Shown one piece after another: positions 39,047 to 51,343 of a DNA stretch of 64,000 bases. Position 1 is the first letter of the stretch; every line of letters begins with the position of its first letter. The position numbers were made by a program, and so were the translations under genes. The stretch is taken from NCBI RefSeq assembly GCF_012027645.1, contig NZ_SNUU01000001.1:1612001-1676000 (forward strand), given 5' to 3'. Source of the DNA: Thermococcus sp. 18S1. Its GTDB lineage: Archaea > Methanobacteriota_B > Thermococci > Thermococcales > Thermococcaceae. The notes beneath the pieces were generated by a model that saw only the letters and a program-made list of their open reading frames with translations, did not search any database and was not told the DNA's origin.

Positions 39047-41110
39047 ATGGGAAAGGCTCTCCCGGTTCTGCTGGTACTCATCCTCGTAGCTTCCACCAGC
39101 GGAGTAGGGGCCTTTGAATTTGAACTCGATGGTCTAATGGACGAATCCTATGTGATCGACCTGACGGAAATAAACGGCACGATATACGCGCTTGCGGCGG
39201 CATCCAGCTCGGGTTACGCCTGCAACGGCTATGTAAGCCTCATCACCATATCAGAGGATGGCAAACTTCAGAACTGGACGCTCCTGCCGAACATCAGCAC
39301 CGACGTTGAGCTGTGGCCCTGGTTTGGGATGGAGAGGGTCAGGAACACGCTCCTCCTTGCAGGCTCGGGATGTAACAGCATGAACCCGAAAATCGTTCAG
39401 TCGTGGCACGTCTTCGTAAACGGTTCTTTCGGATACCGGGGAACCGCCCACGCGGGACTGCTGGCAAGCCCCGTGGTGCTCAACGACACCGTTTACTCAC
39501 TAGTCTTCCACCCGCTACTCGGGTCCTCCCTCGTGATTCTGGGCACAGGACTTCCCAAGGAACTCATAGCGTTTCCCAATCTCACACTCTCATCCCTTGC
39601 CACCGACGGCCGGCTCATATACGCTGGGGGTGTTGATCGAAACGGTTCCACCATACTTCTCGAAGTGTCCCCAAAGGGGCGTCCAGTAAGGGCCCTCCGC
39701 TTTCCTATCACCGCCACAGGGGACGCGGTTGTAAGGGTGGCCTATGTGGAGGAGCCCATCCTCCTGATTGGAATGTTAAACGGCACGTACATGATCCAGC
39801 CCTGGGAAGGAAGGGCGGTCTTTTTTGAGGGGGTAAGCCTCTTCGATGTGGAAACAAACGGTGATGACCTCCTGCTCGTCGGGGTTAAAGGCTCCAGAGG
39901 GGCCGTTGTGAAGGTCCATGGGGACAAAGCACTCCTCTACACGGGGGAAAGGCTGCTGGTAACAATATCTGGGGACATTCTCGGAGGTGGCGGAAACGGA
40001 ACTATGTACGTGGCCACTCTGGACAGATTCCTGTCCCAATCGAAAGCCTCGGAAATCAGGGTTCTTAGTTTAAACGTGACTTCTGAGATTGTAACTCCCA
40101 AAATCCTGCGTGGACTCGGGAACATCGGGGTCGGGTTGCGTGGAAAGCTCAGGAGGGCGGAGGGCACCCTCGAGATATGGCCCAATCCCCTCGATGCCAA
40201 TGTCTACATCAACGGGGAGCATGTGGGCAACGGTTCGGTGAAAGTCACCCTTCCCGCGGGCGTTTATAACCTCACCGCGGTCGCGTACAACTGGCCCGCC
40301 TACCGCTATGAGGGGACGGTGAGGGTTGTCCCCGGAAAGACGATCTTCGTTGAGGCTCCACTTGAGTGGTACCGAGGCTGGCTTCTTGTGGGCGGAACCC
40401 CTTACGCCACGGTCTACGTTGATGGGGAGGCCATGAAGAACATCCCCGCCAATTCAACGGCAAACATCACCGTGGATGCAGGCAACCACACGGTAAGGGT
40501 ACGGCTTGACGGCTATCGGGATTTCGTAACGAACATCACCGTTGAGCCCTTTCACACGGTCCATCTAAACGTCACCCTCGAGCCCGTGGCCGTGCTGTAC
40601 CTCATCTCAAACGTCCCGGGAACGAAGGTTTACATCAACGGCACCTACTACGGAGAGATAAGGAACAACGAGCTGAGGATCGAACTGCCGCCTGGAGAAT
40701 ACCTCCTAACGGCGGGAAGATGGGGGTACCTCAACTACACCGAAAAGCTCAACCTAACTGCCCCGTCCATAACCCTGGGGGAAATACGCCTGAGGCCCGC
40801 CTTTGGTTTCCTCAACGTTACCAGCGACCCCCCAGGTGCGACCGTGATAGTCGATGGAAAGAACAGGGGTAAAACGCCCCTCTTCATAAGCATACTCCAG
40901 GGAACCCACGAGCTCGAAGTGGTCAAAGAGGGCTACGAGGCTTACACCGCCAACGTCACAGTGTTGGCAGAAAGACAGAGGATAGTCAGGGTAAGCCTGA
41001 GACACAAATCCCGGATGCACATAATCATTACGGCGTTTGCCATTGGAGCAGGTGTGGTTCTGCTGGCACTCTACATCACGAAAGGGAAGAAGCTGCGCCA
41101 CCACCCTTGA
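39047..41110 (+). CDS. Secreted PEGA-repeat protein with C-terminal membrane anchor
   Basis: 687 residues. A signal peptide MGKALPVLLVLILVASTSG opens it. Residues 25-355 look like a beta-propeller-like sensor domain with many N-glycosylation sites. At least three to four PEGA-type repeats follow, e.g. NVYINGEHVGNGSVKVTLPAG, TVYVDGEAMKNIPANST and TVIVDGKNRGKTPLF, each with a short VDG/ING turn. A TM (IIITAFAIGAGVVLLALYI) and KGKK tail end it. Surface-exposed. A TATA-like ATATTTATTC lies upstream. The accessory island begins right after its stop. Confidence 0.85.
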   Translation: MGKALPVLLVLILVASTSGVGAFEFELDGLMDESYVIDLTEINGTIYALAAASSSGYACNGYVSLITISEDGKLQNWTLLPNISTDVELWPWFGMERVRNTLLLAGSGCNSMNPKIVQSWHVFVNGSFGYRGTAHAGLLASPVVLNDTVYSLVFHPLLGSSLVILGTGLPKELIAFPNLTLSSLATDGRLIYAGGVDRNGSTILLEVSPKGRPVRALRFPITATGDAVVRVAYVEEPILLIGMLNGTYMIQPWEGRAVFFEGVSLFDVETNGDDLLLVGVKGSRGAVVKVHGDKALLYTGERLLVTISGDILGGGGNGTMYVATLDRFLSQSKASEIRVLSLNVTSEIVTPKILRGLGNIGVGLRGKLRRAEGTLEIWPNPLDANVYINGEHVGNGSVKVTLPAGVYNLTAVAYNWPAYRYEGTVRVVPGKTIFVEAPLEWYRGWLLVGGTPYATVYVDGEAMKNIPANSTANITVDAGNHTVRVRLDGYRDFVTNITVEPFHTVHLNVTLEPVAVLYLISNVPGTKVYINGTYYGEIRNNELRIELPPGEYLLTAGRWGYLNYTEKLNLTAPSITLGEIRLRPAFGFLNVTSDPPGATVIVDGKNRGKTPLFISILQGTHELEVVKEGYEAYTANVTVLAERQRIVRVSLRHKSRMHIIITAFAIGAGVVLLALYITKGKKLRHHP

Positions 41111-41144
41111 AGAACTCGTCAGGACCTGCTCGAAGAAGGGATGA

Positions 41145-41387
41145 AGGACCTCTTCAAGTGATACTCAACATCAGTCCATAAGTCAGCAGCTACAAGCTTT
41201 TGAGCAGACAAAGAACCAAAAGAAGAAAGAGGAGTGCTTTAAGGTCGCAGAAGGTGGAGAGATAAAGCTCAACGTTGCAAAGAAGAGCATTTGGGAGGAT
41301 TTTTAACTATGGGCGCAGAAGAGGTTGAGATCCTCAGGGCCATCGCCGGCACTATCGAGGAGATTGAAGAGGACATTGATTAGATAA
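41145..41387 (+). pseudogene. Decayed small gene at the left edge of the island
   Basis: An open frame without a proper start codon (ATA at 41178 where a start would be expected) reads SQQLQAFEQTKNQKKKEECF, continues through EIKLNVAKEEHLGGF and MGAEEVEILR, then goes out of frame near 41340 and ends at 41385. The alternative frame downstream reads IAGTIEEIEEDID, which fits the preceding sense better. Just upstream, RQDLLEEGMKDLFK followed by a stop at 41159 looks like the tail of another lost gene. I read this as remains of an integrated element. Confidence 0.5.
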
Positions 41388-41414
41388 CCGAAAAGGAAGC
41401 TGAAGCTACAGCGA

Positions 41415-41774
41415 TTGAAAGCACTGAAGGAAAGACGGAAAAACCAAGGCGTTGTTTCGGCTGGTGACGTTTTCCAGGAACTCGCCAAAGAGCTCGGAGT
41501 GAAAACTCCTGCCACCGAGGCCAATGCTGAAAATGGGGAGGTTACTTCAGAAGAAGCAGAAGAGCGTCCACGAAAAAAGCGCCGCTACATTGGCAAGAGC
41601 GCAAGAATCAACGCCGAGCTGATGAAAGAAGCACTGAGAGAACTTAAGAAGGCCTACGCCCGGAGCTACCAGCCCGAGGTCGTTGATTCAATAGAGGGAG
41701 CAGTCCTGCTGCTGAAGGTCATCATTGCGGAGAACGAAGATGTGTTTCCGGGGGTGATAAAAGGGAAAGAGTGA
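41415..41774 (+). CDS. Small charged protein of the island, unknown function
   Basis: 119 residues from a TTG, with no clear ribosome binding site; the true start may be lost. Highly charged, with GDVFQELAKELGVK early, a Glu-rich stretch at 40-52, a basic RPRKKRRYIGKSARINAELM segment and a helical tail. It could be a DNA-binding protein of a plasmid or virus. Its last 87 bases overlap the opposite-strand membrane gene, so one of the two ends is probably not native. Confidence 0.5.
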   Translation: MKALKERRKNQGVVSAGDVFQELAKELGVKTPATEANAENGEVTSEEAEERPRKKRRYIGKSARINAELMKEALRELKKAYARSYQPEVVDSIEGAVLLLKVIIAENEDVFPGVIKGKE

Positions 41775-42152
41775 AAAATTATCTCCTCGATCTACGTCTT
41801 TTTCTAAACTCTTCAAGGTTTCCCTGTTTAATGCGTAGATCTCTTCTTCTATGACTTCAATGTTAGAGTGAAGTTCTCCAAGCGTGTTATTAATCTCATC
41901 AAGTTTGGATACAATCTTATTTTCAGACTCCCTTTGAAACGGCGCCATAAATATGAGAAACCCCACAGAGAAGAAACCAGAGGCCATATATTCATAAATG
42001 CCCCCCTCCGTTGAGATACCAAGCCCAATAAGTATCAAAACAACCCCCACTATCCTATCTGGAATCCGGCTCGCAAATCGCTCTATAAACAAGATTATAA
42101 AAACCAAAATTATTGAAAACCCCAATATTCCCCCAACCATTGATAACTCCAT
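41688..42152 (-). CDS. Membrane protein with C-terminal coiled coil
   Basis: 154 residues from the ATG at 42152 after GGTGGTG. Three hydrophobic segments (GILGFSIILVFIILFIE, IVGVVLILIGLGIS, ASGFFSVGFLIFMAPF) are followed by a heptad-like stretch KLDEINNTLGELHSNIEVIEEEIYAL. The last 30 residues overlap the opposite gene and look less native. Unknown function. Confidence 0.65.
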   Translation of the reverse strand: MELSMVGGILGFSIILVFIILFIERFASRIPDRIVGVVLILIGLGISTEGGIYEYMASGFFSVGFLIFMAPFQRESENKIVSKLDEINNTLGELHSNIEVIEEEIYALNRETLKSLEKDVDRGDNFSLFPFYHPRKHIFVLRNDDLQQQDCSLY

Positions 42153-42187
42153 TCACACCACCTCACGGCAGCCGGCCGACCTCATGG

Positions 42188-42640
42188 TCATGCTCTTTCT
42201 TCGAATGGTACGTCAAGGGTTCCGATCGGAGTGTCAATATGAAGCGTTCCTTTAACCCTCCAATCCACGTCTCCCCTCTTCAGAGCGCTCCAAATTGTCT
42301 TCAAGGCCCCTCCATAATCCAGGGTGAACTCACTGGACACGTATCTAATGCTACGTGCTGGAATGTCTACGGACCTATCAATGTAGCCATATCCAAGGAA
42401 CTCTCCATTCCCATAAAGCTCGTATTCTATCCTGTCCAGAGTGGCAGTCACGTCATTGGGATTGTAGATTCTGAACACGATCTCCAACTTTGCTCCTGTC
42501 AGCCCGATACTTGCAACCCTGACATCGGACAGTGTTATTTCACAATTCTGTAATGCGGCCCTCTTCTCGTATTCAGAATAAACATAGAGGCCACCCAAGA
42601 GAATAACCACTACCACTATAGCCCCTAACCATTTCCCCAT
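42188..42640 (-). CDS. LEA type 2 / WHy-domain membrane-anchored protein
   Basis: 150 residues from MGKWLGAIVVVVILLGG after GGAGG. One N-terminal TM anchors an LEA14-like beta-sandwich: LEIVFRIYNPNDVTATLDRIEYELYGNG and IPARSIRYVSSEFTLDY (residues about 53-80 and 95-111). Such domains occur in stress and secretion proteins. Same direction as the coiled-coil membrane gene 35 bp downstream. Confidence 0.8.
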   Translation of the reverse strand: MGKWLGAIVVVVILLGGLYVYSEYEKRAALQNCEITLSDVRVASIGLTGAKLEIVFRIYNPNDVTATLDRIEYELYGNGEFLGYGYIDRSVDIPARSIRYVSSEFTLDYGGALKTIWSALKRGDVDWRVKGTLHIDTPIGTLDVPFEERA

Positions 42641-42777
42641 GTAGACCTCCCTCCGCTCTTTCTTAGTAGGCAATATTGTAATTACGAGCAACTATAAGAG
42701 TGTTTCGCCACTCAAACTAATGTGGATGTGCCCAAAGGATTTTTATTCCGGATCTTCACATAGTATGCGGTGATATC

Positions 42778-43965
42778 ATGCGGAGGAAGGCCCTGGCCCT
42801 GAGCCTCTTAGTAATTTTATTGGCCTCAGTCGTCAGTGGCTGCATCGGCGGCGGAGGAACAAAGACCATTACAGTTACCAAAACCATCGGGCCAGAAGAA
42901 GACACGAGCACGCCAACAAGCTCGGCAAGTCCAAGTTCAATGGCTACTGAGACGCATACGACAACAAGCGAAGCTATGGCTACCGAAACTGTCACACCCC
43001 CGGAAGACAAAAACGTAATTCAAGCGGACTGCAGTGAAGATTCATGGAAGAACGACTATGAACAAGCGATTGTATGCGGAGTCCAAGAGGGGTTCAGAGA
43101 TTTAGTTGTACCTAGTGATTTTGGAGTTCACACTAACAACAAAACTAAGGTACCATTAGAGTTTGCAGAGTTTTTGGGGAACAAAATATATCTTGACGTT
43201 AAGAAAGAGAACCAAAGCATGATTCAAGGAGAGTACTTCGGCATACAGACCCCCATTGAGTTGCTGATGCATCGAAAAGGGACTTACGCTGATTTTGCTA
43301 TAGCCGGAGCCTATGTATTCCTGTATGAAGGCTTAGATACTTATGTCATCTATATAAAGACTGAAAAGGGCATTGGGCTATTTCCAGGCTTCAGATTCAA
43401 AGAAAAATACTACGACAGAATCTTCGTCGTGTACTGGCCATACCTTATTCCCATAACCCTCGGCGGAACAGTAGAATTACTAAATATTGCTGGTGACCCC
43501 GTGCAAGAAATAAAACTCTACCATCTATGGCGTGATGGGGGAAGCGTCAAAGCCAAACTTGAAACAAGCGTAGAACCCGGCCCCCTAATCCCCGCGTACT
43601 TAACCTCCGCCAGCTCAGACTACTTCGATAATCAAGGATGGGTGAAGCTCGACATGATGGAGAAGCTTCCAGAAGTCCTACAGCAGGATAACCCTCAATG
43701 TAAGTATGTCGAGAGCACAGATGACATCTACTACCGGAACCTCAAAGAATACGAGGTTAACGTGCCCTTAATGCTTTACCTCTATAGTAAGACCTATCAA
43801 GACCAATGGACCGATATCCTTGCCAAGGCCGCCTATGAATACCTGAAACAGCAGGGGTTCGACGTGCAAAAATGCAGGAAATTCACGCTTCTCGATGTCT
43901 CTCCGTCGGTCTTCGTGAAAGGAGGCATGTACATCAGAATCTACGCGGAAATGCCTGAATCATAA
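42778..43965 (+). CDS. Lipoprotein of unknown function
   Basis: 395 residues. MRRKALALSLLVILLASVVSGC is a lipoprotein signal with lipobox ending at C22 (given here as residues 1-22). A Gly run, then a Thr/Ser-rich linker to about residue 75, tether a globular domain of about 320 residues with no recognised fold. GGTGATATC precedes the ATG. Surface-displayed. The G+C of the body is lower than in the flanking core genes. Confidence 0.8.
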   Translation: MRRKALALSLLVILLASVVSGCIGGGGTKTITVTKTIGPEEDTSTPTSSASPSSMATETHTTTSEAMATETVTPPEDKNVIQADCSEDSWKNDYEQAIVCGVQEGFRDLVVPSDFGVHTNNKTKVPLEFAEFLGNKIYLDVKKENQSMIQGEYFGIQTPIELLMHRKGTYADFAIAGAYVFLYEGLDTYVIYIKTEKGIGLFPGFRFKEKYYDRIFVVYWPYLIPITLGGTVELLNIAGDPVQEIKLYHLWRDGGSVKAKLETSVEPGPLIPAYLTSASSDYFDNQGWVKLDMMEKLPEVLQQDNPQCKYVESTDDIYYRNLKEYEVNVPLMLYLYSKTYQDQWTDILAKAAYEYLKQQGFDVQKCRKFTLLDVSPSVFVKGGMYIRIYAEMPES

Positions 43966-44053
43966 CCTCGCTTCTACTTTTTTACAAACGTTTGCAGTAA
44001 TAATTCCGCAAGTTATTTAATATTCAATACCCTAAGCAATCTCAGGTGAGAAA

Positions 44054-44410
44054 ATGCCAATTGCGATCCCCATGGAGGACCTCCCACGCGAGACCCTAAA
44101 CAGAATGAGCAAGAGAGAGCTAAATAAACTCATCAAAGACCTAACACTCGACGCTGAAACCTCGGCAAGCGAAATCCTCCAGCTTTCAACTCCGAGAGAA
44201 ATAATAGAAGTCAGCGAAGGCCTTGGCGTCCCACTGGCTACAAAGGAAGAACAACTCCAGGAGATCCTTGAGATAATAGAAGAATACCGGAGGGAATACG
44301 GCCCCAAAGAAGAACTTGAAAAACTCGCCGAAACCAGCCCACACCTCAGCATAATCCTCGAAACCTGGAACCACTACGAGGAACTCCTCCACAAGGAGGG
44401 ACTCCTGTGA
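44054..44410 (+). CDS. Helical protein, antitoxin candidate for TumE-like gene
   Basis: 118 residues after GGTGAG. Composed of predicted helices, including MSKRELNKLIKDLTL, TPREIIEVSEGLGV and ILEIIEEYRREYG. No helix-turn-helix is obvious. It is coupled to the next gene by a GTGA overlap, the arrangement of toxin-antitoxin pairs. Role inferred from position. Confidence 0.65.
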   Translation: MPIAIPMEDLPRETLNRMSKRELNKLIKDLTLDAETSASEILQLSTPREIIEVSEGLGVPLATKEEQLQEILEIIEEYRREYGPKEELEKLAETSPHLSIILETWNHYEELLHKEGLL

Positions 44411-44919
44411 GCAGAATCCCCTTAGTGGTGGCCATTTTTGAGGATAGACACTCAAGAGCCCTCCCACCCCGAAACAAAGCTTTTAAGCTTCTCCTGAGCA
44501 ACGCAACCTTTCTAAAAAACATCGAACGCCGATTAGCCCGTTACGGGATAATCCAAGAGGTTACCTTTAAACCACGACCGCCCGCCACACCCGACGACAA
44601 CCTGGAGTACCAGGCCAAAATAACGTTCACAACCGGCCACGTTCTCTACATCATCGACCGCTTCATTGAACACGACTGCAATGGAAAAACCATATTCCAG
44701 CGCAAATTCTCAGCCTACCTAAGAGATACCCTCGGTCATGAACTCGTCGGATGGGACAACTTCCACGACGAACCAACCTTCCAATCCTGGCCCCTCCACA
44801 TGCACGGCAGAGGCCACACAGAACCGATACCAAGCAAAGAACAGAGCCTTCCTGAGGTAATGCAAACCGTAATAACCAAATACATAACCCCCTACATCCT
44901 CGGCGGGCACATACGCTGA
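44407..44919 (+). CDS. TumE (DUF6516)-like toxin candidate
   Basis: 170 residues from GTG 44407. The C-terminal half has HVLYIIDRFIEHDCNGKT, FSAYLRD, then WDNFHDEPTFQSWPLHMHGRG, which resembles the R-x-DN-x-PHH....fPHH-x-H core of TumE-type proteins, whose members are toxins of HTH-antitoxin modules. Here several histidines are kept and the spacing is close. The N-terminal 60 residues are longer than usual. The match is by eye. Confidence 0.55.
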   Translation: MSRIPLVVAIFEDRHSRALPPRNKAFKLLLSNATFLKNIERRLARYGIIQEVTFKPRPPATPDDNLEYQAKITFTTGHVLYIIDRFIEHDCNGKTIFQRKFSAYLRDTLGHELVGWDNFHDEPTFQSWPLHMHGRGHTEPIPSKEQSLPEVMQTVITKYITPYILGGHIR

Positions 44920-45106
44920 AGTCTGAAACTCTAAATCCGGATAATTCTTAGTATCAGGTAAAAGTCATTCCCTGCCAAATTTTTCGCAAACCTTATTTAA
45001 GGAGAAGTTCACCTTACAAAGGAAGACAACGATGGATCGGAAGCCCCATGCCAAGCACTCTTGCAAAATTAATTTAAAGTTTGAAAATCTATACAAAGTG
45101 ATAACA
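44920..45106 (+). promoter_or_regulatory. Promoter region of the nuclease module
   Basis: Two possible TATA boxes are seen: CTTATTTAAG near 44989-44998 and AATTTAAAG near 45072-45080. The first would start a transcript near 45020 and allow the ATG at 45032; the second suits the ATG at 45107. Confidence 0.45.
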
Positions 45107-46273
45107 ATGCCGTCCGACCAAACGCTTGGACAAAAGACGTATATTAATGACATCAAGACAAGAGGTAGCCTCTATGAATGGCTAGAAACCAATATGTCTC
45201 GCAGTTACAGGGAAATCCTCGAAGAGCAAAAATTAGAACCCGACCAGAACCTTGTTAAGACGTATGTTGTTGAGTCGAACATTTCACCTAAATTCCTCCA
45301 ATACATTCTCAGAGGCCTCTTTAGCTCAATTCGAGTGGTTCCCCTTGAAGATTACCAGTTATATAGAATAGATGTCGAAGATAAGGAAAAGAGACTCCAA
45401 GTCCACTTCTTCTTAGACGCTAAAGACACGAGATTCTGGAGAGTATTCACCCTCGACAAGGCACAGGATGTGGACAATACCTATAACAAGTTTGTTAATC
45501 AAATAAAATCAAGACTAGATAAACTATGGCTATCAAACAAACTTTTGGAAAAGTTTCTAGATAGTTCCTTTAAAGATACATACCTCAGGAGCATATCCAT
45601 TAAACACGATGAGACTCCCCTCAGCACTGAGGAGGAAAAGAGGGAAAACAAAGTTAGCAAGTTGAGAATTGATGGTTCGGGCGAATTAGTTAACGACCTC
45701 CTTAAGATCATTGAAGGTCATGACAAGTTCCAATACATGGTACGACTAACAAAAATTGGAATCAAACTCGTTGAGAAAGAAGACAGAGACAAGTTTGTTT
45801 TGGAGGATCTGTACTATTGGGGCAAATTTACAGTAAAAGGAACATCCTTTGATGAGCATTTAGAGTTCGTTGACAATGTCGTGCACACATACAGAGATAA
45901 CCTAAAGTATATAGAGGACTCACTCATCGATTACTCATCATTGGATTGGGAGAAAAAGATTCCACTAGTGTATGAGTTCAAAAAAGAAATCTCTGACTTG
46001 GAGCTTTTCGTAAAAGCCATTACGACACCCAAAGAACCCTTCAGGATTTGGGGCCTCGCAAAACAAGTAGAAAAGGACATGTACGTTATAATCGGAACCG
46101 ACCTCCACAATGGCGATAGTTTCTCCCTAGAAGTTACTCCCTGGTGGGCAAGATTATACTTACCAAAAGGCTCCTGCGGAAACACCGCGCTAAGACTTCT
46201 TGCAAACATCCAACAGTCGTATGATGCCAAAACTTACCTTGAGGTGCCCCAATATGGAGTCGAGATTAGATAA
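45107..46273 (+). CDS. Unknown protein, first gene of nuclease module
   Basis: 388 residues from ATG 45107 (GTGATAAC just before); an in-frame ATG at 45032 would add 25. No family is recognised. Visible stretches are KTYVVESNISPKFLQYILRG near the start, RLQVHFFLDAKDTRFWRVF, a helical charged middle, and YVIIGTDLHNGDSFSLEVTPWW near the end. No membrane segment and no NTP-binding loop. Its last 20 bases overlap the next gene, which is a PD-(D/E)XK nuclease, so the two products are made together. A target-recognition or regulatory role is possible. Confidence 0.8.
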   Translation: MPSDQTLGQKTYINDIKTRGSLYEWLETNMSRSYREILEEQKLEPDQNLVKTYVVESNISPKFLQYILRGLFSSIRVVPLEDYQLYRIDVEDKEKRLQVHFFLDAKDTRFWRVFTLDKAQDVDNTYNKFVNQIKSRLDKLWLSNKLLEKFLDSSFKDTYLRSISIKHDETPLSTEEEKRENKVSKLRIDGSGELVNDLLKIIEGHDKFQYMVRLTKIGIKLVEKEDRDKFVLEDLYYWGKFTVKGTSFDEHLEFVDNVVHTYRDNLKYIEDSLIDYSSLDWEKKIPLVYEFKKEISDLELFVKAITTPKEPFRIWGLAKQVEKDMYVIIGTDLHNGDSFSLEVTPWWARLYLPKGSCGNTALRLLANIQQSYDAKTYLEVPQYGVEIR

Positions 46274-47633
46274 ATTTCTCCAACCCAAACATGGAGGCGC
46301 CCCAATCCGCTCTCTTGAAGAGCTAACCAAATTTCAGAAAGCACACACTAAGCTAATGAATATCATCCTGAACCTTGCGACACCCATCCCCAATTTCCCT
46401 AGTCGCCTCTACAAAAAAGGATATAGGATAGTACAAGGCAGCATAGAACCGCATATCCGTTTTAAACAAACCAAACTCAATGGGAAAGGTGTAACTCCCG
46501 ATATACTCTTGCCAAATTATGAGAAGGAACACATAATCACCTTTGAATGTAAAAGCTTTCAAGCAAATCCTGAACAGCTACAAAAATACCTATATCTAGC
46601 AGAACATCCAAAATTGATACTCGACCAGGCAGTGATACCCTTCAAAGAGCTCCCCACTCACCTCAAAGTAGACGTCTCATACATCTCCCACAAGGACATA
46701 ACCAACAACGAGGTTCTCTCCAATGGAAAAGGGATTCAAATCCTCCGCATTGTGGAAGTCAATCCTCCAGATAGCTCCGATGACCCAAATAATCCTATTG
46801 TGAGAAAAATTGAGTTAGTGAAAGGGGAATATAAAAATCCTGAGTTGAATTCAGTCTTCCCAATAAAGTGGAGACTAAAAGAAAAACCCTCCTACGTGCT
46901 ATTCCCGTTTGACCCAAGCCAAGACGCTGAAATATTTCAAATTCACATCATAAACAAGCTAATTGAGTTTGCAACATTAGGGCAAGAATTCCCAACAAAA
47001 GGCATGGTTTTCAACAAAGACATCGTCATCACAAGTGGGACAACAATCAAAAAAGAAGAACTACTCGTGGAGGATCCTAAAGAGCAAGACGAAAAATGGG
47101 AACAACTACTGAACACCCTTGAAAAGATAGCTCCCGGCAAATATGAAGTAGAAAACGAGAAAATCAAAATCCTAGAAGATATCTTACTCCTAAAAGCAGG
47201 CAATGCCCTAGACGAGATGAGAGCCGAGTTAATCCTACTAATAGGACTCGACGTTGATATGAGCACTTTAACAGAACGGGAATTCAGCCCCGGAGAACTC
47301 GCGTACGAATTATACGCCTCAGGGCCATACTCAATATACCAGTTCTTCCACAGGGAATACAAAGACCTGATTCGCAAAAGAGTTGATGCTTCACTAAAAA
47401 GACTCTCAACAGGTCCATTAAAAGGATACCTCAAAAAACCACCGAAACGAGGCAAACGCAAACGTGTCTGGAGAATAAAAATCATAGATAAAAAACAGCT
47501 CTCCGCATTCAGAGACACCTGTGAGAAAGCCGCACGCGAATTAGAAAGCAAATTCAAGACGCGATACATCGACGAATACATAAAAATCTTCCTCACACCT
47601 CAAACAGACACCCAAGAAGATAAGAAGAGGTGA
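46254..47633 (+). CDS. PD-(D/E)XK nuclease domain protein
   Basis: 459 residues from ATG 46254, which has GAGGTG seven bases upstream. Near residues 85-110, GVTPDILLP and then IITFECKSF give the D...E-x-K core of the nuclease fold. The C-terminal half has helices and a basic region KPPKRGKRKRVWRIKI at about 398-413, suited to nucleic-acid binding. Domain between about 200 and 380 is unrecognised. It overlaps the upstream unknown gene and lies four bases before an HEPN-type gene. Defence function is inferred. Confidence 0.75.
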   Translation: MESRLDKFLQPKHGGAPIRSLEELTKFQKAHTKLMNIILNLATPIPNFPSRLYKKGYRIVQGSIEPHIRFKQTKLNGKGVTPDILLPNYEKEHIITFECKSFQANPEQLQKYLYLAEHPKLILDQAVIPFKELPTHLKVDVSYISHKDITNNEVLSNGKGIQILRIVEVNPPDSSDDPNNPIVRKIELVKGEYKNPELNSVFPIKWRLKEKPSYVLFPFDPSQDAEIFQIHIINKLIEFATLGQEFPTKGMVFNKDIVITSGTTIKKEELLVEDPKEQDEKWEQLLNTLEKIAPGKYEVENEKIKILEDILLLKAGNALDEMRAELILLIGLDVDMSTLTEREFSPGELAYELYASGPYSIYQFFHREYKDLIRKRVDASLKRLSTGPLKGYLKKPPKRGKRKRVWRIKIIDKKQLSAFRDTCEKAARELESKFKTRYIDEYIKIFLTPQTDTQEDKKR

Positions 47634-47637
47634 GTTA

Positions 47638-48252
47638 ATGCCCGACCAAGACAAAGGAGACGCTAAAATCATCGAACCACTGACGAAGTTCCATGAGAGG
47701 CGTTGATTGTGGAGAAACAGTTACTTAGAATGTATATTTATGAACTGCATCTCCAAGTAAGATTTGCCCAATATGCATATAATCAGATGGTAAAGAACAT
47801 CCTTTCGCCCTCTGAAGGCTCCCTTCTCAAAGTGTTCTATCATGCTCATGCGTTCCTTATCCATGTCTCAAATATCTCTAAAATACTTGAACCCAAAAAA
47901 AGAGAAAAAACGGAAAGAAATCTTAGAAGAGCTAGGTCTCTCTGAGGAAGAATTAGAACTCCACCGGGCTCTGCGCTTGAGGAATCATCTTGAGCACTAT
48001 GATGAGAGATTAGAGACTTGGTTCAAAGGATCAAAAGCTCACAACTACGCTGATATGAACATTGTGCCTAGGTCCGCTATTGTAGGAATTGACCCTAAAG
48101 ATTTCCTTAGAAATCTCGATCCTGAAACACTTCATTTCATATTTCAGGCAGAAGATTACGATCTACAGAAACTCAAAGCGGAAGTAGATTTAATCAAAGA
48201 AAGATGCGAAGCTTGGTTGGATAGAGAAGATATGAAATGGATAGCGAGGTAA
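47638..48252 (+). pseudogene. HEPN-domain RNase gene, reading frame broken twice
   Basis: ATG 47638 with GAGGTGA before it begins MPDQDKGDAKIIEPLTKFHE and stops at 47704-47706. The sense continues in a second frame from TTG 47703 (RMYIYELHLQVRFAQYAYNQ), and returns to the first frame after the A7 run at 47895-47901, where one base fewer gives PKKEKKRKEILEELGL. The last part carries RNHLEH, the R-x4-H motif of HEPN RNases. The two shifts compensate. Alternatives: TTGA re-initiation at 47703 plus slippage at A7, or sequence error. Confidence 0.65.
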
Positions 48253-48329
48253 AGCAATAAGTACCAAAGAAAACATTTCTAATGAGGCCTAGAATCTTGG
48301 AATTGTGTCATTTACCATTTTTCTAAGAG

Positions 48330-48874
48330 TTATTCAGCACCCTCAAAACTACCGTTTATCTCCTGCTGAACAAGTGCAACTTTTTCTTCTATCTCTTTTA
48401 ATTTTGAACTTAACTCATCTAAATCTTTGAACTTTTCAATGGGCAAATTAGCGAGTTCAACAAGCTCCGGATCAATACCCTCCAAGCCTTTAGAGAAGTC
48501 TGTGTTCTCAATCTTTGTTATTATCCCTTGGAACTCCTCAAGTTCATGGACATATTTTTTTCCAACTTCCTAAGTTCTCTCTGGAGTTGCTCGAACCTCA
48601 TGTTAAATTCTCTCCAGACAAAAAGTTCTTCGGCCAAAAGCAAATATAGGTGTAACAGAATGGCTCTCTCCCGACCGAGAATTTCAATTCGGGCTTTTGT
48701 TTTGTTAATCTCATGTTTTTGAACCTCTATTTTCTCCTGAACGGTTTCGATTTCATTCCAGAGAATATTTGCAACTTCGACAGCCTTCTTTTTTATTTCT
48801 TGTAGTTCCTTGGGCTCATGGTCGTCACGAGCTTTTTTAATTCCCATTTTCTCGAGAATGCCAAGAATCTTCAT
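48330..48874 (-). pseudogene. Coiled-coil gene interrupted by a frameshift at an A7 run
   Basis: From ATG 48874 a frame of 117 residues ends at 48521, but the next frame continues to a stop at 48330-48332. Adding one A to the A7 run (plus-strand T7 at 48555-48561) joins LRKLEKK to YVHELEEFQGIITKIE and on to KLKEIEEKVALVQQEINGS, a single protein of about 181 residues. It is helical and heptad-rich throughout. The disrupted state may be real, an error, or corrected by slippage. No domain recognised. Confidence 0.6.
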
Positions 48875-48917
48875 ATAAACTCACCCAATTCATTTTAGAT
48901 TTTGAAAATTATAAAGA

Positions 48918-49211
48918 TCAAACATGACAATAGATCCTCACCATCGCTTTGTCTCTAGGATTATATCCTGGCCTATTGCCCTCAAAGTGTTCGTCAGTTA
49001 CTGTTAGACCGGATATTTTGGATATCCGAAATAGTTTCCATCCGACCGGCTTGCCTGACTCGCTATATCCCCCAATCTGATATGCTCTTAAGACTTCATT
49101 TCCTGCTGTGCTTACGCCATAGCAAAAGGGTTCTACTATGCGAATACCTCCTTTGTAATAAAACTTAATAATTCTCCTTGACTGTATTGCAGAACAAATA
49201 ACGGGCTCCAT
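48918..49211 (-). CDS. Stand-alone WYL-like domain protein
   Basis: 97 residues from ATG 49211. AIQSRRIIKFYYKGG at the start, RIVEPFCYGVSTAGNEVLRAYQ in the middle and WKLFRISKISGLTVTDEHFEG fit the WYL fold with its R-x-x-x-F/Y-Y and EP-x-x-Y/G pattern. WYL domains usually follow a helix-turn-helix and sense ligands in regulators of CRISPR and phage-defence loci. Here no DNA-binding domain is attached. Confidence 0.7.
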   Translation of the reverse strand: MEPVICSAIQSRRIIKFYYKGGIRIVEPFCYGVSTAGNEVLRAYQIGGYSESGKPVGWKLFRISKISGLTVTDEHFEGNRPGYNPRDKAMVRIYCHV

Positions 49212-49377
49212 CTTTCTCCCCTCTGGTTCTTAACAATAGCAGTTTATCGTACAAACTGTGACATTATCCCTTAAATAATTTCCATACGTAATCTTTACGC
49301 TCGGTTTTAGTGTCGAAGTTTTACTCCCCTTACGCGACTCCAACGCAGGAGAAGCCCAACTTTCACAGGAGGACCTC

Positions 49378-50484
49378 TTGAAACAGTCACTTAACGGTAA
49401 ACCTTATGAACATGAAGCCGAGGTAAGAAAAACCTTAATATACATCGTGGGTTCTATATTCAAAATAATGGCTCGCGATGACATCTTTCCGGATATGATT
49501 GAACGACGCCATGTGGTTCTACAGATCATCGCAAGTGCAATTTTTATGGCTATAGCAGTGAGCATTATTTCAAGTTCACTTGTAGAGATTATGAATATCG
49601 TCAATATATCACTCGGGCTTAGGATTGCCCTTTCTATCTTGATAATAGTTGGTTCAACACTATGGCTAACGAATTACTACCTAGGTGAAACTATTACTAT
49701 CGATTTTTCAATGCCTCTGTTAGTAAATAAAGACACTGGAGAGTTTTATCCACTTGATTATTTTCCTGCATTCAAAGCATTTGAAGTTAGCAAGATATTC
49801 AAACAAAAAGCATTAGCCCTGACCAATAACATCAACATTAATGATCCTAATATCCGAGACTTAATTGAATGGATTTTGTTAAGATACATCCTAGAAATAC
49901 ACTCAACAAAAATAGTGAGTCCAATAGTTGGGAGGGCATCTCCAGTCTTGTCTCCAAGTCCTATGTCCTTTGTGGACATATCTAGAGCATTTGAAGATAA
50001 TATCTTTGTAAAAGAAGCCAAAAATTATTGGCAAGATAACGAATTTCATGCCCTCATACCTACAGGAGTTGTTATAAAAAGAGGAACCCCTGAAAATAAC
50101 ACAATCAGTGCGGAGAGTGCGGTTATACTTCGGGGAAAATTATTAACTCCACTAGATTTTCTCTCAATAACTGCCACCGTTGTCGGGATCCAATTTGAAG
50201 CTCCTATGTCGTTGTTGTACTTGATCGGATGTACTCCGAGGGCTTTTGTTATTGGTGAAACCAAAATTATCTGCAAAGAGCGGGAAATTAGTGGAAAAGA
50301 AGCAGAAGAACTGATGAAATGGGCAGAAATTAGATGCATAGTGACAGTTAGATACAAAATGCGAGGATGGCTGTTTTTTCATCCAAAATTCCGAGACTGG
50401 TATCATTGGGCACAAGATTTAGTTTCACATGCAAAGACACATTTTGACTTTGAGACGTACCTTGAAGAAAGAAACAAAAGATGA
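49378..50484 (+). CDS. Two-TM membrane protein of unknown function
   Basis: 368 residues from a TTG with AGGAGG five bases upstream, a strong ribosome site that decides the start. Two hydrophobic helices lie at about 46-72 and 80-100 (VVLQIIASAIFMAIAVSII and IALSILIIVGSTLWL). The remaining 260 residues appear cytoplasmic. No family recognised. Island codon usage. Confidence 0.7.
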   Translation: MKQSLNGKPYEHEAEVRKTLIYIVGSIFKIMARDDIFPDMIERRHVVLQIIASAIFMAIAVSIISSSLVEIMNIVNISLGLRIALSILIIVGSTLWLTNYYLGETITIDFSMPLLVNKDTGEFYPLDYFPAFKAFEVSKIFKQKALALTNNININDPNIRDLIEWILLRYILEIHSTKIVSPIVGRASPVLSPSPMSFVDISRAFEDNIFVKEAKNYWQDNEFHALIPTGVVIKRGTPENNTISAESAVILRGKLLTPLDFLSITATVVGIQFEAPMSLLYLIGCTPRAFVIGETKIICKEREISGKEAEELMKWAEIRCIVTVRYKMRGWLFFHPKFRDWYHWAQDLVSHAKTHFDFETYLEERNKR

Positions 50485-50592
50485 TTCCAAAGAGACAATG
50501 CAATTAAGACAATCAATGAACAAAACAGCGGTAGCAGATGAAGCCAAAGAACCACTCGCGAAGAGGGAATAAAGAGGAAACTCATCGTATCA

Positions 50593-50979
50593 CTATTTTT
50601 CTATCGGTGTCTTTGATAATAATCTCCTTGGTGTTCCCCTTCCGCCGTAGATCTCCATGAAGTACCACAACTTCAGCCCCGAGATCTTTAAGGTCCACAT
50701 TGGCCCAACGTCGAGAATCACCGCAATAACCTCATCGAAGTACTCAACGTAATCCAGAACTTGACCGACTAAACGCTGAAGCCTGCTCCTGCTCTCCGCA
50801 ATCTTGATTTCAATGCCCACAGAGTCCCCGATAGCGATGTCAATCTTTTGATCCCCAACAGGATACTGCCTCTTAACGCTACTACCAAGCCTTGCCCTCA
50901 GGAATTGGTATAATTGCTTCTCCAGGTCCTCCTCATCTCTCACAGTCTCTGGCTGGAAGTCTTCAAGAAGGTCCAACAC
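50593..50979 (-). CDS. Small PD-(D/E)XK-like nuclease protein
   Basis: 128 residues from GTG 50979; in-frame sequence without stop continues about 60 bases upstream, so the start is uncertain. EEDLEKQLYQFL supplies the first helix, KIDIAIGDSVGIEIKIAES the D...E-x-K core, and QRLVGQVLDYVEYFDEVIAVI the following helix and strand, as in Mrr/VRR-type and archaeal nuclease-like proteins. Alone on its strand. Confidence 0.7.
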   Translation of the reverse strand: MLDLLEDFQPETVRDEEDLEKQLYQFLRARLGSSVKRQYPVGDQKIDIAIGDSVGIEIKIAESRSRLQRLVGQVLDYVEYFDEVIAVILDVGPMWTLKISGLKLWYFMEIYGGRGTPRRLLSKTPIEK

Positions 50980-51044
50980 ATCCGGCTCACTAAGCTCATT
51001 GTCTTCCTCGTGGAAATCTGGTGGCTCATCTTCTTCTCTGTATC

Positions 51045-51146
51045 GTGCTCACCTACCGGGAGATGGAGGAAGAGAAGCAACGTCGCGGCATCTCCAGGCC
51101 GGAGTTCGTTCTTGATATGTGGAGTGCCTACAAAAGCCCGAGGTGA
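51045..51146 (+). pseudogene. C-terminal gene fragment at the right edge of the island
   Basis: An open stretch reading VLTYREMEEEKQRRGISR and PEFVLDMWSAYKSPR before a stop at 51144-51146 has coding character but no start and no plausible upstream part. It overlaps the beginning of the minus-strand frame before the nuclease gene. I read it as the tail of a gene cut by insertion or deletion of the island. Confidence 0.4.
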
Positions 51147-51343
51147 GTTCTATGAGAATTCCAGCGAGAGGCCCTGAACGTCCAGGGAATTGAGATAGTT
51201 TAATACCCCCCGAAAACTATAACTCCTCCTTTGCACCAATTCTTTTGGTGGAAACCTATGCGAATATCTGGTGCTGGAGTAGAGAAACCTCCTACCTGCC
51301 ACCGTGCCGGGTTGAGGTGGGGCGTGGCTTCCGAGGTGGGAGC

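Follow-up and report, generated by a model that had tools for sequence, protein, structure and literature searches.

Several described systems invite comparison with the gene pair analyzed here. Nucleases of the RecB and HsdR types carry a characteristic QxxxY motif. TBP-like lobes occur in the N-terminal part of RnlA and, in RNase HIII, serve to bind double-stranded nucleic acid (PMC3710099, PMC7221094), and EndoMS/NucS is a clamp-stimulated PD-(D/E)XK-type repair nuclease (PMC8228993). We analyzed a 64,000-nucleotide stretch of the genome of Thermococcus sp. 18S1 (the window), which contains two overlapping genes, gene 1 and gene 2. The domains of the modeled gene 1 protein may bear a weak fold-level likeness to RnlA. 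Unlike RnlA/LsoA (RNase LS), however, gene 1 has no HEPN domain at its C-terminus, and its partner is a PD-(D/E)XK protein rather than RnlB. Gene 2 has the D ... (D/E)xK ... QxxxY core in common with HsdR_N and RecB-type nucleases, but the module has no helicase, methylase, or specificity subunit, and the likeness falls below family cut-offs. With EndoMS/NucS, compared by feature, the shared property is a nuclease combined with a sliding-clamp interaction, as predicted for three bacterial copies of gene 2; EndoMS/NucS is a core repair gene, whereas genes 1 and 2 form a two-gene module that travels as mobile cargo. The same pair is found on the 58-kb element of Methanocaldococcus jannaschii (MJ_RS09135/MJ_RS09130; 51% and 36% identical by tblastn), with the same 20-base overlap. 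Both genes are annotated there as hypothetical, and we found no functional report on them in the literature searched. PHROGs v4 holds a family for each protein (phrog_22469 for gene 1, phrog_27163 for gene 2), neither with an assigned function, and does not link the two into a module. The family thus appears to be undescribed in the libraries and literature searched, with its members already in databases as hypothetical proteins.

Both open reading frames are intact in the window (Table 1). Relative to the copy in another Thermococcales genome (G021), gene 1 has a dN/dS of 0.05/1.10 and gene 2 of 0.07/0.68. Among three close Thermococcus copies the Nei-Gojobori ratio is approximately 0.05 (gene 1) and 0.10-0.13 (gene 2), with synonymous sites approaching saturation in some pairs. 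These low values indicate that both are real genes under purifying selection. The pair lies in an island with a GC content of 0.37-0.48, against approximately 0.56 around it. The flanking genes are 10.2 kb apart in the window and approximately 0.9 kb apart in the close relative G034, and alignment places the insertion at approximately 41091-51201 of the window; the spacing in G061 is likewise approximately 0.9 kb. Because the island is missing from G034, we regard it as acquired. At its right edge, a G034 gene that reads as a metallo-beta-lactamase-fold protein (LSHCHYDHTGG) is intact (L039, 2098-2974), and scraps of it are kept at 51202-51330 of the window.

Table 1. Positions of the gene pair and of neighboring features in the window
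Feature	Position	Strand	Remark
Acquired A+T-rich island	41091..51201	.	absent in relatives G034 and G061
Toxin-antitoxin-like pair: 118-aa unknown-family protein and 170-aa TumE-family toxin	44054..44919	+	PF20126 E 5e-6; island cargo, outside module
Gene 1, 388 aa, partner protein	45107..46273	+	open reading frame, ATG 45107
Gene 1 C-terminal domain, residues ~287-380, predicted b-a-b-b-b-b-a, best-conserved part	45965..46246	+	
Gene 2, 459 aa, predicted PD-(D/E)XK nuclease with C-terminal extension	46254..47633	+	ATG 46254
Gene 1/gene 2 overlap, 20 bases	46254..46273	+	
Gene 2 nuclease core D83 ... E98-C-K100 ... Q108-L-x-x-Y112 (QxxxY)	46500..46589	+	
22-codon stub of deleted MazE/AbrB-like gene	47638..47706	+	flank of module, not HEPN start
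HEPN-like sequence split in two frames (47703-47945; 47842-48252)	47703..48252	+	frames change near A7 run; bystander

The island carries other cargo. The TumE-family pair sits just upstream of gene 1, and its own reading frames overlap by 4 bases. A 97-aa WYL-domain fragment at 48921-49211 (PADLOC WYL model, E 6e-6) is probably a truncated regulator. A second small PD-(D/E)XK-like protein, with a weak match to the sce7726 family, is encoded at 50593-50979; over the first 97 residues it shares 78% identity with a frame located 2 kb upstream of the pair at another locus (L011), which indicates that these two islands share more than the pair.

The gene 1-gene 2 pair occurs at 11 places in archaea and bacteria, the window copy included: five Thermococcales genomes, the M. 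jannaschii extrachromosomal element, plasmids of Halobacterium, Lysinibacillus, and Metabacillus, and two IMG/VR contigs. In all 11, gene 1 precedes gene 2 and the reading frames overlap by 4-50 bases. Direct search recovered relatives of gene 2 in G021 (87% identical) and G024 (76% identical) and weaker matches in more genomes, two of which are diverged pairs. Profile searches with both proteins found gene 1 in 5 of 94 Thermococcales genomes and gene 2 in the same five, and no further copy of the pair in 115 genomes of the phylum. A translated search of plasmids found the pairs of M. jannaschii, Halobacterium hubeiense, Lysinibacillus irui, and Metabacillus; both IMG/VR pairs (L028 and L035) adjoin prophage genes. 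None of 50,697 phage records matched the pair. With the single gene 2 protein as query, pattern scans of genome and viral contigs returned nothing; alignments of gene 1 were required. One weak match (L010, in G081) was rejected as chance, as the genes around it resemble a CRISPR type III locus and it did not recur in the profile search. Across copies the two proteins co-evolve tightly, with their pairwise identities correlated at r = 0.97 (Mantel p = 1e-4), and in every pairwise comparison gene 1 is the better conserved of the two. Such statistics are limited by the small number of copies. The original prediction, made from the window alone, was of an undescribed unit, comprising a large unknown protein and a nuclease, whose genes overlap by 20 bases within an A+T-rich island. 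This much stands: the overlap and the island are as described, G034 has no island at this place, the order is conserved elsewhere, and no PADLOC system corresponds to the unit. A known housekeeping pair, which would have spoken against it, was not found for genes 1 and 2, and comparison across Thermococcales genomes revealed a sporadic distribution.

Gene 2 had been read as a PD-(D/E)XK nuclease, and alignment of the 11 copies shows a conserved PD-(D/E)XK core. D83 is present in 10 (Glu in Metabacillus), E98 in 10 (Asp in Halobacterium), and K100 in all 11; Q108 and Y112 of the QxxxY motif follow the catalytic residues in every copy, and the exceptions in the core are conservative. By sequence, gene 2 is hence a predicted nuclease with the catalytic D and (D/E)xK of the PD-(D/E)XK class. 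Matches of individual members to Pfam were all below threshold, several of them to nuclease families (HSDR_N_2, PDDEXK_4, and VRR_NUC, E 0.02-0.05), three members matched phrog_27163, and a profile search of PDB sequences found no relative. In PADLOC-DB 2.0.0, gene 1 members had no match, and gene 2 members matched only Cas8f (E 0.029, in one member). The structure model of gene 2 (pLDDT 42) was unusable and gave no significant match in the PDB. The window protein has a C-terminal extension of approximately 120 residues relative to shorter copies. QLSLF-type pentapeptides are a consensus sliding-clamp-binding signature, and three of the four bacterial gene 2 proteins carry QLSLF or QLSIF (QLS[LI]F) at the C-terminus, the strongest conserved block of those tails. 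A simple pattern for the PIP box found none in the archaeal copies.

Gene 1 proteins range from 354 to 429 aa. Residues invariant in the 11 copies include K51, E56, R109, D138, W141, G239, H251, Y262, F312, G316, D332, H334, C357, N359, R363, N367, I368, and D373, and cluster in the C-terminal domain, which carries GTDLHNGD and CGNT-x-x-R-x-x-x-N-I. No family in Pfam, NCBIfam, or PADLOC matched gene 1, and a profile search of PDB sequences found no relative; the phage family phrog_22469 matched it over residues 30-378 (E 3.5e-49) and matched all nine members tested. The C-terminus, which ends in the CGNT...NIQ...D domain, had no HEPN family match. A model built from five sequences had a mean pLDDT of 59. 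In this low-confidence model, the element order b-a-b-b-b-b-a appears in residues 51-132 and 287-371, and domain-sized matches had E-values from 4e-4 upward. Among PDB structures they included RnlA, AdoMetDC, and KA1 domains, and among viral models TFIID and RnlA-like proteins; for RnlA, TFIID, and AdoMetDC the range was E 4e-4 to 0.3. The model hints at TBP-like folds, a lead that falls short of a fold assignment. A two-lobed TBP duplication is not claimed, as profile comparison of the two halves gave a probability of 0.2%. Separately, a 146-aa protein of a haloarchaeal plasmid (L027, 7965-8405) has the gene 1 C-terminal domain and nothing else, and lies among small unannotated genes.

The neighborhoods of the pair are mobile and mixed, and only some are rich in defense genes. 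L007 is an integrated plasmid with an ATPase 96% identical to t26-14 of pT26-2, which is among the core genes of the pT26-2 plasmid family (PMC6972569), and a closely similar ATPase is encoded in L008; the pair is absent from pT26-2 itself. In M. jannaschii the pair lies among HsdR, EVE, ATP-dependent endonuclease, PIN, and VapC genes, on the Metabacillus plasmid near PemK/MazF, Fic, and DUF86 genes, and in the L035 prophage close to genes for an integrase and a RiboL-PSP HEPN protein. The last belongs to a prophage gene pair of its own, with a ParA-like ATPase (L035, 7342-8987), close to the nuclease module. Two further genes of L007 (gene 3, 134 aa; gene 4, 170 aa) were considered as fixed components; a relative of gene 3 follows the pair in L011 only, so they are not core. 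Among annotated or scanned neighbors, no methyltransferase recurs beside the pair, which sets it apart from restriction-modification systems of types I-III.

We lean, with modest confidence, toward reading the pair as a two-subunit DNA nuclease that mobile elements carry as cargo and that acts against other invading DNA, whether phage, virus, or plasmid. Its role in conflict between elements would probably be defense or exclusion, and the mobile elements and the toxin-antitoxin and restriction neighbors make a defense role plausible; the pair may equally be of some other use to mobile elements. The main rival, which we hold possible but rather unlikely, is a toxin-antitoxin or plasmid-addiction pair, in which gene 2 would be a DNA-cutting toxin and gene 1 its neutralizing partner. 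Such a pair would fit the order of the genes, as an upstream antitoxin overlapping its toxin is found in many type II systems, as well as the carriage on plasmids and prophages and the toxin-antitoxin genes near several copies. Antitoxins, however, usually diverge faster. The size of gene 1 and its better conservation argue against a simple antitoxin, and its many invariant D/H/C/N/R residues are more like those of a working enzyme or receptor.

A second alternative is that the pair does housekeeping work for mobile elements, for example as a nuclease in replication, recombination, or maturation, and takes no part in conflict. Copies with readable context are on mobile elements, a nuclease of replication or repair could likewise make use of the clamp-like tail seen in bacterial gene 2, and a lone gene 1 C-terminal-domain protein occurs on a haloarchaeal plasmid. 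Yet the carriers are unrelated (pT26-2-type plasmids, a methanogen element, Bacillaceae plasmids, and a prophage), and even among Thermococcales the pair is sporadic. This spread over unrelated carriers disfavors a core carrier function, and we consider this alternative quite improbable.

The original prediction also placed a HEPN RNase gene third in the operon, opened by an ATG four bases past the gene 2 stop. The ATG is there, at 47638, but it opens MPDQDKGDAKIIEPLTKFHERR followed by a stop (47638-47706). This stub is the N-terminus of a MazE/AbrB-like family, whole members of which follow the pair in L007 (9059-9469 and 9466-9888; PF04014), and G024 has a similar stub directly after gene 2 and another ahead of gene 1. 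The HEPN-like sequence begins at the stop of the stub. Its label comes solely from an RNHLEH (Rx4H) motif and its frame is broken; the split near the A7 run may be a sequencing error. Pfam, NCBIfam, and PADLOC gave no HEPN family match for 47703-48252, neither half had a relative in the 94 Thermococcales genomes, and the larger half had none among 72,556 plasmids. A check proposed beforehand was whether the gene order recurs: the two-gene order does so at ten further places, and the triplet with HEPN at none. A three-gene system in which the HEPN protein would be a second effector, an RNase beside the DNase, is therefore rejected as highly improbable. The motif does lie directly downstream on the same strand, but in a split frame, behind the stub of an unrelated gene, and in none of the other ten copies. 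In three Thermococcus genomes, MazE/AbrB-like N-terminal stubs (MTDQD...EPLAKFH) border the pair on one side or on both (in the window, at approximately 5439-5480 of L007, and at approximately 10466 and 7804 (minus strand) of L008), and in L011 whole MazE/AbrB-like copies flank the pair. These repeats could be recombination sites for cargo swapping or relics of operon regulators.

If the pair is a two-subunit nuclease module directed at invading DNA, we infer that it would work as follows: (i) the gene 1 and gene 2 proteins would form one complex; (ii) gene 1 would bind nucleic acid or a sign of infection, possibly via TBP-like folds, and control or place gene 2; and (iii) gene 2 would then cut DNA, in bacteria probably at the replication fork via a sliding-clamp tether. 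Since no methyltransferase recurs beside the pair, self and non-self would be told apart other than by ordinary cognate methylation, or the action would be suicidal once triggered. A bolder form, which we hold unlikely, is a new kind of cross-domain immune module, in which a TBP-like receptor would guide or license a clamp-tethered PD-(D/E)XK nuclease so that replicating foreign DNA is cut without a methylation mark.

The pair spans hyperthermophilic archaea to Bacillaceae and keeps its order, overlap, and co-evolution, which is how functional conflict modules behave. None of the family libraries searched gives it a functional name, and its partner protein, for which no activity is known, has over a dozen invariant residues. 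The Bacillaceae copies make the module testable at ordinary temperatures. If it is a defense system, it would contribute a novel nuclease partner and might reveal a new means of targeting replicating DNA.
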